Positions 50,376 to 58,635 of a stretch of 64,000 nt of DNA are shown here, piece after piece (positions within the stretch are counted from its first letter, which is position 1; the number at the start of each line of letters is the position of its first letter). A program made the position numbers and the translations under genes. Below the pieces are notes generated by a model that did no database searches, had not been told where the DNA came from, and saw nothing but the letters and a program-made list of their open reading frames with translations. Source of the DNA: Archangium sp. (GTDB lineage: Bacteria; Myxococcota; Myxococcia; Myxococcales; Myxococcaceae); NCBI GenBank assembly GCA_030695565.1, contig JAUYRZ010000033.1, forward strand, positions 1 through 64,000, read 5' to 3'.

Positions 50376-51464
<1,089 letters not shown>

Positions 51465-51688: not shown

Positions 51689-52648
51689 ATGAGCTCCGAA
51701 GAGACGGAAAACCAGGACGACCCTGGCCTCGAAGAGATGGACCCCATCGAAGACGCGTGGCTGCTCCAGGAGCCCGACCAGGTCGAGAAGATCGCCCGCG
51801 AGCGTCTGGCCACCGACGCCGATGACTCGGCCAGTCAGGCCTGGCTGGGCCTGGCCCTGTGCATCACCAACCGGCTCCCCGCGGGGCAGGCGGCCTTGAA
51901 GAAGGCCTTCGAGCTCATTCGCGCCAAGCTCGCGGTGCAGACCGACGAAGAAGAAAAACACATGCTCACCTGGGAGCTCCACGGCATCGCCAACCGCCTG
52001 GTGGACACCCTGGCCGAGAACCCCACCCTGGGCGTGGCCTCCGCGCAGTTCGTGGTCGACGGGCTCAAGTTCGAGCACGCCCCCAGCCTGCGCATGCTCT
52101 CGGAAGACGTGGCCACCCGCGAAGGCGACCCGGTGAAGGCGGCCGGTTTCCTCAAGCGGGCGCTCGCCGTCGACGCCACCGACCCCGAATCGCACTACCT
52201 GGCGGCGCGGTTGATGGCCCGCCTGGGCAAGAAGCCGCAGGTGCTCTCGCATCTGCAGAAGGCCCTCGACAACGCGGCCGGCACCATCGCGGTGCGCACG
52301 CTCGCGCGGTTCGAGCCCGACTTCGACGGCTTCCGCAAGGACCCCGAGTTCAGCGCGTTGATCGATCTCTTCCCGGCTGAGGCCGTCTTGCGCCCCATCT
52401 ACGTGGCGCTCGACGCGGGTGACTTCGCCAGGGTGGTCGAGCTGTGTGGCGCCAACTTCGACAAGGCGCCCCACAAGCTCGACGTGCTCTATCCGTGGCG
52501 CGAGTCGCTCGAGCTGCTGCTCGACGAGCCGGGGCCCGAGTACGACCGGGTCAACCAGGAGCTCGAACGTGTTCAGGCGGTGATCGACGAACACGAAGGC
52601 AAAGACGAGGAGAGCCCCGTCTACCAACGCTTCTGCGGCGACGCCTGA
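51689..52648 (+). CDS. TPR-like protein
   Basis: 319 residues without signal or membrane helix. It starts with an acidic disordered segment (SSEETENQDDPGLEEMDPIED). The rest is alpha-helical with TPR-type patterns (ASQAWLGLALCITNRLPAGQ, ALAVDATDPESHYLAARLMARLG), probably 4-6 repeats. TPRs bind proteins. It lies 5 bases before the exonuclease gene and is likely co-transcribed. The intergenic region to mreB has nothing else I can name. Confidence 0.7.
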   Translation: MSSEETENQDDPGLEEMDPIEDAWLLQEPDQVEKIARERLATDADDSASQAWLGLALCITNRLPAGQAALKKAFELIRAKLAVQTDEEEKHMLTWELHGIANRLVDTLAENPTLGVASAQFVVDGLKFEHAPSLRMLSEDVATREGDPVKAAGFLKRALAVDATDPESHYLAARLMARLGKKPQVLSHLQKALDNAAGTIAVRTLARFEPDFDGFRKDPEFSALIDLFPAEAVLRPIYVALDAGDFARVVELCGANFDKAPHKLDVLYPWRESLELLLDEPGPEYDRVNQELERVQAVIDEHEGKDEESPVYQRFCGDA

Positions 52649-52653
52649 GCCTC

Positions 52654-53538
52654 GTGCGAGTTCACCTGGTCGACGGCACCTTCGAGCTGTTCCGCGCGCA
52701 CTACAGCAAGCGGCCCTCGCACACCTCGCCGAAGGGGAAGGATCTCAAGGCGACGGTGGGCGTGGTGCAGTCGCTCATCTTCCTGTTGCAGGAGCAGAGC
52801 GAGCGCGCCACCCACGTGGCGATCGCGTTCGACAACCCCATCGTCTCGTTCCGCAACGAGCTGTTCGATGGCTACAAGACCGACGCCGGTATGGACCCCG
52901 CGCTGCGTGGCCAGTTCGACGACGTGGAGGAAGCGGCCGCGGCGCTCGGCGTGGTGGTCTGGAGCATGAAGGCGTTCGAGGCCGACGACGCGCTCGCCAC
53001 GGCCGCCTGGCGCTTCGAGAAGGATCCCCGGGTGGAGCAGGTGCGCATTCTGACGCCCGACAAAGACCTGGGCCAGGTGCTCCTCGGCGAGCGAATCGTG
53101 CAGGTCGATCGCATTCGAAGGAAGGTGATCACCGAAGAGACGCAGTGGAAGGACAAACACCTCAAGCCCGGCAGCGTGCCTGATTTTCTGGCGCTGGTCG
53201 GAGACACCGCAGACGGCATTCCCGGGCTCGACGGCTGGGGTGAGAAGTCGACGGTCGAGGTGCTCGCGGCGCACCCCAGGCTCGAAGACATTCCCGACAA
53301 GGTGGCCGACTGGAAGGCGCGGCCGCGCGGCGGGGAAAAGCTGGCCATCGTGCTCGCCCGTGAACGGAAGCAGGCGATGCTCTACCGCACCCTGGCCACC
53401 TTGCGCGCCGACGTGCCGCTGCCCCAGACGCTCGAGCAGCTGGAGTGGAAGGGCGCTCCGAAAGAACGGTGGCTCGCGTGGTGTGACGCGGTGGGCGCCG
53501 ATTCGATGAAGGACAAACCGCCTCGTTTCATCGGGTGA
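52654..53538 (+). CDS. 5'-3' exonuclease / flap endonuclease (Pol I N-domain-like)
   Basis: 294 residues from GTG (RVHLVDGTFELFRAHY). PIN-fold metal-binding Asp are seen in LVDGTFELF, FDNPIVSFRNELFDGYKT (plus an arch Lys), KAFEADDALATAAW, ILTPDKDLGQVL, then the helix-3-turn-helix LVGDTADGIPGLDGWG. This resembles the exonuclease part of DNA polymerase I as a free-standing protein that removes RNA primers and 5' flaps. Near-complete active site suggests it is functional. It follows the TPR gene by 5 bases. The polymerase domain is absent here. Confidence 0.9.
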   Translation: MRVHLVDGTFELFRAHYSKRPSHTSPKGKDLKATVGVVQSLIFLLQEQSERATHVAIAFDNPIVSFRNELFDGYKTDAGMDPALRGQFDDVEEAAAALGVVVWSMKAFEADDALATAAWRFEKDPRVEQVRILTPDKDLGQVLLGERIVQVDRIRRKVITEETQWKDKHLKPGSVPDFLALVGDTADGIPGLDGWGEKSTVEVLAAHPRLEDIPDKVADWKARPRGGEKLAIVLARERKQAMLYRTLATLRADVPLPQTLEQLEWKGAPKERWLAWCDAVGADSMKDKPPRFIG

Positions 53539-54142: not shown

Positions 54143-56974
54143 CTACGCCTCTACAGAGTCGGGCGGGCGCGTAATCCACGCGGCGATGAACAGGTCGATC
54201 TCGCCCCGCATCACGTCCTTCACGCGAGGCGAACCTTCACCCGTCCGCGGATCTTCCACCCGCGGACTCTTCCCCACGAAGTAGCGCCGCACCTCCGCGC
54301 CGCCTTCGCCCTGGCCACCGAGCACCGTCATGGTGAGCGCCTTGAGCTCCAGCACGGTGGCTGAGCCGAACAGCGTCACCTCGCGCCCCGTCTTCTCGTC
54401 GCGAGCCGACACCTCACTGCCGACCCGCTCCACGAAACGGCCCGCACGCCGCTTCACTTCTTTGCCATCGAGCCGGAGCGTGTCGGGAACCACCACCTCG
54501 CTCGAAGACGGCCGGTAGATCCGCACGTAGGCCGACAACCGCGCGTCATCATCGATGCGTCGGTGCGTGCCGCGCTCTCCGGCCAGAAAGCCGAACACAC
54601 CCGGCCCGTGCAGATGCAGCACCGCGCGAGAAGGCTCAACGCCTTCGGCAACCGCGTTCACTTCGTAGCCGCGGCGTTCTGCCCAGCCCCGGTACATGGT
54701 GACCAGCTCGCGCACCCACGCTTCGCTCGAATCACCATTCGCGCCGGCGGACACCTCGAGCCACGCGTCGTCGACGTCCTTCGCACCACCGGCGGCCACG
54801 CGCGCTTCCGCCAGCCGCACCTCACGCGCCGCTTCTTCGACCGCGCGCACCGCGCCCGCCAACTGAAGCTCGCCTTTGGCATCGCGCGCACGTCGACGGG
54901 CGACCTGGCAGAGCTCACGCAGTCGATCGAGTTCACCCAGCTGCGCATCGATCGCGCGGAACGTTCGCAGCACCGCAGCCGCGCGTTCACCGTCATCCCA
55001 GAAACCGGGCGCCTGCGACTTCGCCAGCAGCTCACGCCGGCGCGACTCGAGCTCCGGCCGTTTCGCCGCGGAGGCGACCGCCGCTGCTCGGCCGACGAAC
55101 GCCTCTGCCTCTTGCGTCAGCGCCTTTTGATCGAGGCGCTTGTTCTTCACCTGGCCACCCGCCGAGGGCAAATGCGCCTGCGCCGTGGCTTCCCGCTCGC
55201 GCGTCACCCTGGGCTCGGCCACCGCGTGCACGGTGCCCTTGTGCGCGACGACCTTGACTGGCGTACCGGCGGGCAGCGGCCTGCGCGCGATCTCCACGGC
55301 GAGGGCGGCGGTCAGCGTCTTCTCGATTTCCCGCTGAAGGAAACGCGCACCATGTGACGGCGAATAGCCACGCTCCACCAGCAGCTCGACGACCTCGGGC
55401 GCCACCTCGACGTCGAGATGACGCGCCCGAATGCCCTCACGCTCGAGCACGCGGCCGACTTCGCGCTGCGCGATGCGGCGGATCTCGACCTTGCCCAGCG
55501 GGCGGAAGTGGCAGAGGCCGTCGAAGCGATTCAAGAACTCGGGGCGGAAGGTGGAGGAGATGCGGCGATCGATCTCGCTGATCAGCTCGTCGTCACCCCG
55601 GCGCGCGGAGAAGCCGATCGGCCCCTCGCGATACACCTCGGCGCCCACGTTCGACGTGCAGACGATCAACGTGTTGTTGCACGGCACCGTCTCGCCGGCC
55701 GCGTTGATGAACTGCCCTTCGTCGAAGAGCTGGAGGAACCGGTCGTGGCACTTCGCGTGCGCCTTCTCGAATTCGTCGAGCAGCAGCACGGTGAACACGC
55801 GGCCGTCGAGCAGCTTGGTGAGCTCCCCTCGTTTGCCCGACACCGTCTGCGCCCAGGGATTCCCGAAGAGCACCTGCTCGTCGCCGAAGTCCGGGTAGTC
55901 GGCCATGTTGAGCCGCACCAGGCGATCCGCCGCGCCGAAGAGATACTCCGCGAGCAGCTTGGCCAGGTGGGTCTTGCCGACGCCGGTGGGCCCCGCGAAG
56001 AGGAAGACGCCGAGGGGACGGCGCGGGTTGTTGAGGCCTGCTTTGAGCAGCGCGACCGAGCGCAGCACCGCGGCCACCGCGTCGGTCTGACCGAGCAGAC
56101 GCGTGCCGAAGAAGCGGCCCACCTCGTCGAGATCGAGCGCCACCGCGTCGTCGGCCATGAAGCGCGGCAGCCGGGTCGAGTTGCAGAAGCGCGCGAGCAC
56201 CTCTTCGCTGCTCACCCGCTCCTTGGCGGCGCCGGCGGCCTCCGTCACGGTCTCGCGCAGCAGCTCGATCGCTTTTCTCGGCAGCCGCTGAGCCAGTAGA
56301 AACTTCACCGAGAGCCGCAGCGCGAGGTCGCAGGCGGACGCGTCGATGGGCAGGTTCTGCTCGACCTCGAGCTCTTCGGCGACGCGCCCGAGAATCCAAC
56401 GCGCGCGCTCGACGGTGGGCTCGGCCACCATGAAGAGGTGCAGCTTCTCGGCGAGCGCCTCGTCACTGCGCAGCAGCTCGTGCGCCGCGCGGATGTCGGT
56501 CTCGAAGATGAAGCGCAGCTTGCCGGCCCGCAGTGCGCGAATGAGCACGGGCACCAGCGAGCTGCCGCGCACGTGGCCGACGTCGCGGATGAAGAGGATG
56601 GTGGGGTGGGGCTGCTGGCTGGTCTCCTCGAGGAATTCTTCGAGCAGCTCGGCGGCGCCCTTGGGCGTGCTGGTGCGCGCGAAGATGCCGGCGGCGGTCA
56701 GCTCGAGCACACGCGCGTTGAGGAGCGCCTCGGGGGCGTTGCCTTGAAAGATGCGGCGAGCGAGCTCCTGCACCACAGCGCTCTTGCCGACACCGGCTTC
56801 GCCCGCGAGCAGGGGGGCCTTGCCTCCGCGGGTGAGCAACGTGGCGAGCTCAGCGGCAGATTGATCGAGGCCGTAGCCTTCAGGGAGTTTTCGCGCGGTC
56901 GCCAACGCGGTGAGATCTCGCTCCACCAGCGTCTCGGCTGAGTCCCGGGGGCTCTTGTTGGTCTTCTTCGCCAT
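54143..56974 (-). CDS. Clp/Hsp100-type double AAA+ ATPase fused to an RF2-like domain
   Basis: 943 residues from MAKKTNKSPRD. D1: Walker A GEAGVGKS (58-65), but the Walker B strand reads ILFIRDVG, lacking the catalytic Glu. D2: Walker A GPTGVGKT (328-335), intact Walker B LLLDEFEKAH (397-406), sensor TSNVG and D2-small domain, as in ClpA/ClpB; there is no N-domain and no M-domain. From ~640 the protein follows peptide chain release factor 2 through to its end: APGFWDDGERAAAVL, YRGWAERRGYEV, GFLAGERGTHR, LRLDGKEVKRRAG and RRYFVGKSPRVEDPRTG then DVMRGEIDLFI. At the GGQ site the sequence is AGR (844-846), and the SPF codon-recognition loop is absent. ATP-driven handling of stalled ribosomes or nascent chains is my inference. 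It overlaps nothing and stands alone. Confidence 0.8.
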   Translation of the reverse strand: MAKKTNKSPRDSAETLVERDLTALATARKLPEGYGLDQSAAELATLLTRGGKAPLLAGEAGVGKSAVVQELARRIFQGNAPEALLNARVLELTAAGIFARTSTPKGAAELLEEFLEETSQQPHPTILFIRDVGHVRGSSLVPVLIRALRAGKLRFIFETDIRAAHELLRSDEALAEKLHLFMVAEPTVERARWILGRVAEELEVEQNLPIDASACDLALRLSVKFLLAQRLPRKAIELLRETVTEAAGAAKERVSSEEVLARFCNSTRLPRFMADDAVALDLDEVGRFFGTRLLGQTDAVAAVLRSVALLKAGLNNPRRPLGVFLFAGPTGVGKTHLAKLLAEYLFGAADRLVRLNMADYPDFGDEQVLFGNPWAQTVSGKRGELTKLLDGRVFTVLLLDEFEKAHAKCHDRFLQLFDEGQFINAAGETVPCNNTLIVCTSNVGAEVYREGPIGFSARRGDDELISEIDRRISSTFRPEFLNRFDGLCHFRPLGKVEIRRIAQREVGRVLEREGIRARHLDVEVAPEVVELLVERGYSPSHGARFLQREIEKTLTAALAVEIARRPLPAGTPVKVVAHKGTVHAVAEPRVTREREATAQAHLPSAGGQVKNKRLDQKALTQEAEAFVGRAAAVASAAKRPELESRRRELLAKSQAPGFWDDGERAAAVLRTFRAIDAQLGELDRLRELCQVARRRARDAKGELQLAGAVRAVEEAAREVRLAEARVAAGGAKDVDDAWLEVSAGANGDSSEAWVRELVTMYRGWAERRGYEVNAVAEGVEPSRAVLHLHGPGVFGFLAGERGTHRRIDDDARLSAYVRIYRPSSSEVVVPDTLRLDGKEVKRRAGRFVERVGSEVSARDEKTGREVTLFGSATVLELKALTMTVLGGQGEGGAEVRRYFVGKSPRVEDPRTGEGSPRVKDVMRGEIDLFIAAWITRPPDSVEA

Positions 56975-57927: not shown

Positions 57928-58635
57928 ATGTCGCAGGCCACCAAGTACGTCACCCGAGCGGAGTTCGACCCCGTGAAGGAATCGGTCAACACCTTGTCGA
58001 CGCAGGTTCAGATCCTGACGATCAGGATCGAGGTGCTTGGTCAGGATGTCCACCGGCTCACGAACCAGGTGGCCGACATCGCGGAGGACCTCAATGAGGT
58101 GCGCTCCGACCTGAACCAGGTGACGACCGAGGTGACTCAACTGGGTACTGCGGTCGGCGCCCTGAGTACGGAGGTCGGTGCCCTGAGTACGGCGGTCGGT
58201 GCCCTGAGCACCCAGCTCACCGAGTTCCGCGGCAACACCAGGGCCGAGTTTGCCGGTGTCAGGGCGGAGTTCGCGGGCGTGAGAGCCGAGCTCGCGCTCC
58301 AGAAGTCGGAAGTTGCAGGCGTGAGGACCGAGCTTGCGGAGCAGAAGAGGGATATCGCCAGCATACAGAACCAGCTGGTCGAGATCAGGACCGAGCTTGC
58401 GGAGGTCAGGACCGAGTTGGCCGAGCAGAAAACGGAGATCGCGAGTCTGCGGACTGAGCTGGCGGAGGTCAGGACCGAGATTGCCGACGTGAAGTCCGAG
58501 CTGAAGGCAGAGATTGCCGACGTGAAATCCGAGCTCAGGGCGGAGATGAAAGCCGGCTTCGCGGCGCTGGCGCAGAGCGTCGCCGATGGCAATGCCGCCC
58601 TGATGTCGGCCTTCCTGCAACTCGCTCCGCGCTGA
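57928..58635 (+). CDS. Coiled-coil protein of short repeats (apolipoprotein-like)
   Basis: 235 residues, no signal. After ~50 residues it is almost all short repeats: VGALSTEVGALSTAVGALST (7-residue), then RAEFAGVRAEFAGVRAEL, and VRTELAEQK/EVRTELAEQK (11- and 14-residue). The heptads and hendecads predict a long straight coiled coil. The DNA is repetitive, with somewhat lower GC than neighbours, so the array can expand or shrink. Similar repeats occur in phage tail fibre rods and in bacterial rod proteins. Function unknown. Its stop is followed at once by a 27-base inverted repeat. Confidence 0.7.
   Translation: MSQATKYVTRAEFDPVKESVNTLSTQVQILTIRIEVLGQDVHRLTNQVADIAEDLNEVRSDLNQVTTEVTQLGTAVGALSTEVGALSTAVGALSTQLTEFRGNTRAEFAGVRAEFAGVRAELALQKSEVAGVRTELAEQKRDIASIQNQLVEIRTELAEVRTELAEQKTEIASLRTELAEVRTEIADVKSELKAEIADVKSELRAEMKAGFAALAQSVADGNAALMSAFLQLAPR

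Follow-up and report, generated by a model that had tools for sequence, protein, structure and literature searches.

A Clp-type AAA+ ATPase fused in frame to a degenerate release factor 2-like module in the Myxococcaceae

According to the accessible parts of two articles (PMC6514570 and PMC12868832), the AAA+ motor Cdc48/p97 acts with Vms1/ANKZF1 in RQC, where the motor extracts the nascent chain at stalled ribosomes. Among bacteria, the accessible part of the former, a review of release-factor (RF) diversity, treats PrfH (which occurs with RtcB) and ArfB as derived RF-fold paralogues beside RF1 and RF2. In the Clp protease systems, an (L/I/V)-G-(F/L) tripeptide of the Clp ATPase is the ligand of the ClpP H-pocket (PMC8745299). 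Myxococcus xanthus possesses eight divergent clpA/B/C copies, as given in the accessible part of a 2024 paper, and the gene described below may be among the Clp homologues listed there (PMC11423568).

The window analyzed here is a 64,000-nucleotide stretch of Archangium sp. DNA, and it encodes a protein in which two Clp AAA+ modules precede an RF2-like module. To our knowledge, there is no known bacterial AAA+ motor that is covalently tied to a release-factor fold. Both halves belong to known families; what seems new is their fusion, and a new function is a proposal. The first-pass annotation of this DNA knew of no described system with this architecture, and no AAA+/RF2 fusion was described in the literature that we searched, including the accessible part of the RF-diversity review (PMC6514570).

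The fusion gene, its distribution and its selection

54143 to 56974, minus strand: coding sequence of the Clp AAA+/RF2-like fusion, complete, 943 aa, with in-frame homologues 60-96% identical

The reading frame (56974 to 54143, minus strand) runs through 943 residues without a stop and begins with MAKKTNK. No clear Shine-Dalgarno sequence was seen upstream of the ATG; the start codon is consistent with the starts of the homologues. Pfam assigned AAA_2 to residues 319-485 (1.9e-33), ClpB_D2-small to residues 493-575 and PCRF to residues 643-805 (E 7.5e-18). A single frame containing two ClpA/ClpC-type AAA+ modules and then a complete RF2-like C-terminal module, as proposed at first pass, is borne out by Pfam, NCBIfam and the homologues.

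The fusion is real, and a chance explanation is excluded. That an error of sequencing or assembly merged two genes, which the first-pass annotation had named as a threat to its reading, has a negligible probability and is refuted: about 80 independent assemblies, complete genomes included, have the fusion as a single open frame. Two genomes speak for such an error: in one (G025) the RF part alone is intact, and in the other, a 13-Mb genome (G151, L046:5126-8156), the fusion is found as two overlapping frames that switch at the linker, at residue about 610, through a frameshift, a sequencing error or a true split.

Across Myxococcota, where the annotation had proposed looking for AAA-RF fusions, the gene is present in the Myxococcaceae and in one sister-family genome (195 phylum genomes). 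About 45 genomes of a 99-relatives set and about 80 of the phylum set contain it as a single frame; most Myxococcaceae genera carry it, including nearly all the large ones, with M. xanthus among the carriers, and some genera of the family are devoid of it. In a profile search of the order, fusions scored below 1e-100 except for contig-end fragments, and RF2 frames of ~360 residues scored between 1e-7 and 1e-26, so that the search separates both cleanly. A pattern scan of 84,980 GTDB representative genomes, which relies on short conserved peptides and which very divergent relatives elsewhere could escape, returned 47 loci, every one in a Myxococcaceae-type record, including Myxococcus xanthus, Corallococcus, Archangium, Hyalangium, Pyxidicoccus and Citreicoccus. 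None of the relatives, phylum and GTDB pattern scans found the fusion outside the Myxococcaceae and the one sister-family genome. One record titled Comamonas sp. KCTC 72670 (L096) has contig coordinates identical to those of a Myxococcaceae family genome (G044), and for this reason its title is presumably wrong and the record looks like a Myxococcaceae genome. Spread by phages or plasmids was rejected, as neither viral contigs nor plasmids yielded relatives.

Purifying selection acts on all parts of the fusion. Compared with a near relative, each domain has a pairwise dN/dS of 0.02-0.15, with RF domain 4 near zero; at higher divergence the Nei-Gojobori estimates suffer from saturation and can be given only as well below 1. 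In a tree with RF1, the RF-like modules group in a single clade (100/100) whose stem, at 3.1 changes per column, is too long for the duplication to be either dated or rooted.

In the genome G025, the stretch between xerC and hslV-hslU holds a remnant of the fusion (L045:8289-12346) from which the AAA part has been deleted and in which the frame changes twice, and the fusion N terminus (MARKRS...ERDLTELARAG) precedes the stand-alone RF relative there. Because of these features the RF relative looks like a remnant, and its interpretation as the ancestral state was rejected as unproven. Since the AAA part is gone from this genome and the gene itself is missing from some genera of the Myxococcaceae, the fusion is dispensable for life.

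The AAA+ modules and the putative ClpP-docking loop

Residue conservation was counted in 56 distinct full-length members. The features of the AAA+ part, and the linker that follows it, are:

56180 to 56920, minus strand: D1 AAA+ module, degenerate, residues about 19-265, aligned to ClpA and ClpB of the same genome
56780 to 56803, minus strand: D1 Walker A, GEAGVGKS, Lys in 56/56
56582 to 56599, minus strand: D1 Walker B position, ILFIRD, canonical D-E changed to R-D (Arg 55/56, Asp 56/56)
55235 to 56107, minus strand: D2 AAA+ module and small subdomain, residues about 290-580, catalytic set intact
55970 to 55993, minus strand: D2 Walker A, GPTGVGKT, identical in 56/56
55850 to 55867, minus strand: D2 pore loop 1, FGNPWA, Trp374 invariant, canonical Tyr missing
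55772 to 55789, minus strand: D2 Walker B, VLLLDE, identical in 56/56
55610 to 55618, minus strand: IGF tripeptide, residues 453-455, at the site of the ClpA/ClpC ClpP-docking loop, [LIMV]GF in 56/56
55055 to 55234, minus strand: linker from D2 to the RF-like module, residues 581-640

The D1 Walker B motif had been annotated as lacking its Glu; the Glu is lost, and the canonical Asp is lost with it. An alignment to the genome's own ClpA and ClpB shows that pore loop 1 and sensor 1 of D1 are also degenerate and unlike those of Clp. Judged by its motifs, D1 is a degenerate and inactive ATPase. The description of D2 as intact and working stands for its ATPase residues, as Walker A, Walker B, the sensor-1 Asn, the Arg finger and the sensor-2 Arg are all present in 56 of 56 members, and by these residues D2 is the sole complete ATPase of the fusion. 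It does not stand for the pore loop, which reads FGxxW[AG] in the family and not GAPPGYVGY: the position of the canonical Tyr is occupied by Pro, Gln, Ala or Asn, and Trp374 (56/56) lies two residues earlier. With the canonical Tyr missing in both rings, threading would need the conserved Trp.

In the alignment to these two proteins, ClpA and ClpB, the fusion has neither a Clp N-domain nor a ClpB middle domain. The best matches of the predicted whole-protein model were ClpC-ClpP, ClpB and ClpAP chains, with a pTM of 0.45 that gives low confidence in the relative placement of the modules.

The first-pass annotation contained neither the invariant D2 Trp nor the [LIMV]GF loop. The tripeptide of this loop is [LIV]GF in 43 members and MGF in the other 13, and it aligns with the LGF of ClpA of the same genome, which also encodes ClpP. 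Its conservation at the ClpA/ClpC docking position suggests ClpP docking; the RF module, as a C-terminal fusion, lies on the ClpP side of the ring and might hinder it. Another Hsp100 of the genome (L002, G000:C60; 875 aa) has an SMGF loop, scores below both the ClpA and the ClpB cut-offs and is possibly a further ClpP-type ATPase.

The release factor 2-like module

54770 to 55054, minus strand: RF domain 1 (PCRF helical domain), residues about 641-735
54467 to 54769, minus strand: RF domain 2, residues about 736-836
54539 to 54571, minus strand: GTHRRIDDDAR where RF2 has GVHRLVRISPYDSNARR, stop-codon loop deleted
54299 to 54466, minus strand: RF domain 3 (peptidyl-hydrolase domain), residues about 837-892, shortened and degenerate
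54437 to 54445, minus strand: AGR at the GGQ position, residues 844-846, Gly845 in 56/56, Gln at 846 in 0/56
54161 to 54298, minus strand: RF domain 4 (VEDPRTG...FIAAW), residues about 893-938, DPRTG nearly invariant

In the C-terminal part, NCBIfam places prfB (1.2e-24) far ahead of prfA (2.4e-7), and the module is therefore RF2-type. The genome's own RF2, the product of a separate 363-aa gene (G000:C26), aligns to fusion residues 653-934 (E 3e-13). The RF2-like fold assigned at first pass was recovered by structure prediction and superposition: the AlphaFold2 model of the last 344 residues, made with 24 homologues, matched RF2 along its entire length in Foldseek (E 9e-18), and a VIA comparison of the RF module model with E. 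coli RF2 (1gqe) gave a Z of 21.1 and an rmsd of 6.0 with 312 residues aligned.

MAFFT agrees with the hand alignment of the first-pass annotation in placing AGRFVER at the GGQ, as the GGQKVNK of RF2 falls on it. The site reads [AEPLQV]-G-x in the family, the middle Gly being present in all 56 members and the catalytic Gln in none, and a homologue with an intact GGQ at this position, which that annotation had regarded as contrary evidence, is not found among them. A “GGQ” string near residue 888 was rejected as the catalytic motif, being an unconserved chance triplet in the shortened switch region. The shortening after GTHR that had been noted at the SPF position is a 6-column deletion of the SPF/SPY stop-codon loop in the aligned members. 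Also lost is the AGAGGTES tip of domain 2, which in RF2 helps read the first stop-codon base, while domain 3 is shortened by about 20 residues and has lost its switch loop.

Measured against the residues conserved in 21 RF2 proteins of relatives, domains 1, 2 and 4 retain 8/21, 16/46 and 11/30, while the recognition loop retains 1/9 (5 deleted) and domain 3 retains 2/31 (8 deleted). Because domains 1, 2 and 4 are retained and domain 3 and the recognition loop are lost, the pattern at the residue level is one of selective loss of catalysis and decoding rather than of general decay. In agreement with the earlier expectation, a module with the Gln in 0/56 members and a deleted recognition loop should neither read stop codons nor release peptides. 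The RF fold would suit an active, codon-independent release factor of the ArfB or PrfH kind, but the idea is hardly credible, contradicted as it is by the absent catalytic Gln and the shortened domain 3.

Genome context, possible functions and comparison with known systems

The fusion has no conserved neighbors outside the genus, and a comparison across genera revealed no operon that links it consistently to translation or protease genes. A gene for a 180-aa HNH endonuclease (L098:2552-3091) lies ~1 kb upstream on the same strand in several genera, namely in Myxococcus, Corallococcus, Archangium and others, and is absent from this window. Two nearby genes of the window are:

57931 to 58632, plus strand: repetitive coiled-coil protein with EIASLRTELAEVRTE-type repeats, close upstream of the fusion, matching generic coiled-coil families only
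52507 to 53535, plus strand: 5'-3' exonuclease (5_3_exonuc_N and SAM fold) that stands alone, lacking a polymerase domain, near an apparent mreB (50376 to 51455)

RF1, RF2, ArfB, RF3 and tmRNA are separately encoded in the same genome, in which an NFACT-type match is weak. With the usual termination and rescue set encoded separately, the fusion is an additional factor.

We tentatively favor the reading, quite possible if still short of probable, that the protein is a ClpP-linked Hsp100 unfoldase in which the dead RF2 module serves as a targeting domain, likeliest for ribosomes or for another RF-binding partner. A duplicated, catalytically dead RF2 would have been fused behind the second AAA+ ring of a Myxococcaceae-specific Clp ATPase, and the RF2 body would substitute for the lost N-domain and adaptors. 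It would bring the hexamer to the translation machinery, that is, to the ribosomal A site or stalk base or to an RF2 partner, where D2 would pull protein via its Trp pore loop and hand the client to ClpP. Since codon reading is lost, clients would be recognized independently of the stop codon; they are likely to be nascent chains or factors on stalled ribosomes, and the exact client is a guess. The fusion architecture is read directly from the gene; the ribosome binding, the ClpP binding and the substrate are inferred.

Ribosome binding is the weakest step of the proposed mechanism. Because the codon-contacting loop is lost, recognition of an empty A site would be merely one of several options, and the retained RF2 residues may be the fold core rather than a contact surface. 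The absence of the canonical pore-loop Tyr in both rings, the lack of a conserved translation or protease operon and the dispensability of the gene also count against the mechanism. The main rival, which is possible but rather doubtful, is that the RF2 module was exapted off the ribosome as a protein-protein adaptor or ring-assembly domain, in a specialized Clp chaperone or protease with an unrelated client. This would fit the loss of the decoding loop and catalytic elements, a fold-core role of the retained residues, the missing genomic link with translation genes and the many divergent clpA/B/C copies given for M. xanthus in the accessible part of PMC11423568. It fits less well with the retention of domains 1 and 4, the interaction parts of RF2, with their invariant motifs (DPRTG, GxHRR), and with the place of domain 4 among the most constrained parts by dN/dS.

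Proteolysis would not be involved at all if the protein were a translation brake or hibernation-type factor, with the A site obstructed by the dead RF and the obstruction lifted or controlled by the ATPase. Non-catalytic RF-fold A-site blockers have been proposed (the baeRF-1 families, compared with Dom34 in the accessible part of PMC6514570), and the degenerate pore loops would be compatible with such a role; we consider it unlikely, as a simple blocker would not need the invariant D2 ATPase, sensors, Arg finger and GF loop. A regulator of termination that captures and unfolds RF2 partners (RF3, PrmC or ArfA-like factors) or RF2 itself would be in keeping with an RF2-derived module and with the RF3 encoded in the same genome, but the GGQ loop that PrmC recognizes is lost, and we regard such a function as quite improbable.

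Should the preferred, ribosome-targeting reading apply and the RF module bind ribosomes, the protein would directly and physically couple translation to the Clp protease. The presence of the gene in the genetically tractable M. xanthus makes the proposal directly testable.

Compared with described systems, the fusion resembles ClpA/ClpC in its two AAA+ modules without a ClpB middle domain, its D2 catalytic set and its hydrophobic-G-F loop. It differs from them in lacking the N-domain, in the loss of the Walker B, pore loop and sensor of D1, in the replacement of the D2 pore Tyr by Trp and in the RF2 module at its C terminus, and its identity to the ClpA and ClpB encoded by this genome is only 30-32%. 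Assignment as a ClpB disaggregase was rejected, since the M-domain and N-domain are absent, D1 is inactive by motif and the TIGR03346 score is 299 against a cut-off of 1232. With RF2 (PrfB) it shares the domain order 1-2-3-4, the fold and about 24% identity, while it is devoid of the GGQ, the SPF loop and the switch-loop segment, has a shortened domain 3 and is fused to AAA+ modules. PrfH and ArfB, to which it is similar as a derived bacterial RF-fold paralogue, both retain the catalytic Gln and have no attached ATPase; domain 1, present in the fusion, is missing from PrfH. Cdc48-Vms1 likewise combines an AAA+ motor with a release-factor-fold protein at stalled ribosomes, a works-like analogy that implies no kinship: its RF fold is of the unrelated eRF1 type, its components are separate proteins, Vms1 is active, and the system depends on ubiquitin. 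By this analogy, the fusion could be a one-protein bacterial counterpart of Cdc48-Vms1, a ClpP-linked unfoldase led by a dead RF to stalled or terminating ribosomes, where the nascent chain or a bound factor would be extracted or degraded, although we consider this somewhat unlikely. If ribosome binding is true, the fusion would represent an independent solution to the nascent-chain extraction that Cdc48 and Vms1 perform in eukaryotes, and proven ribosome targeting could make it categorically new.
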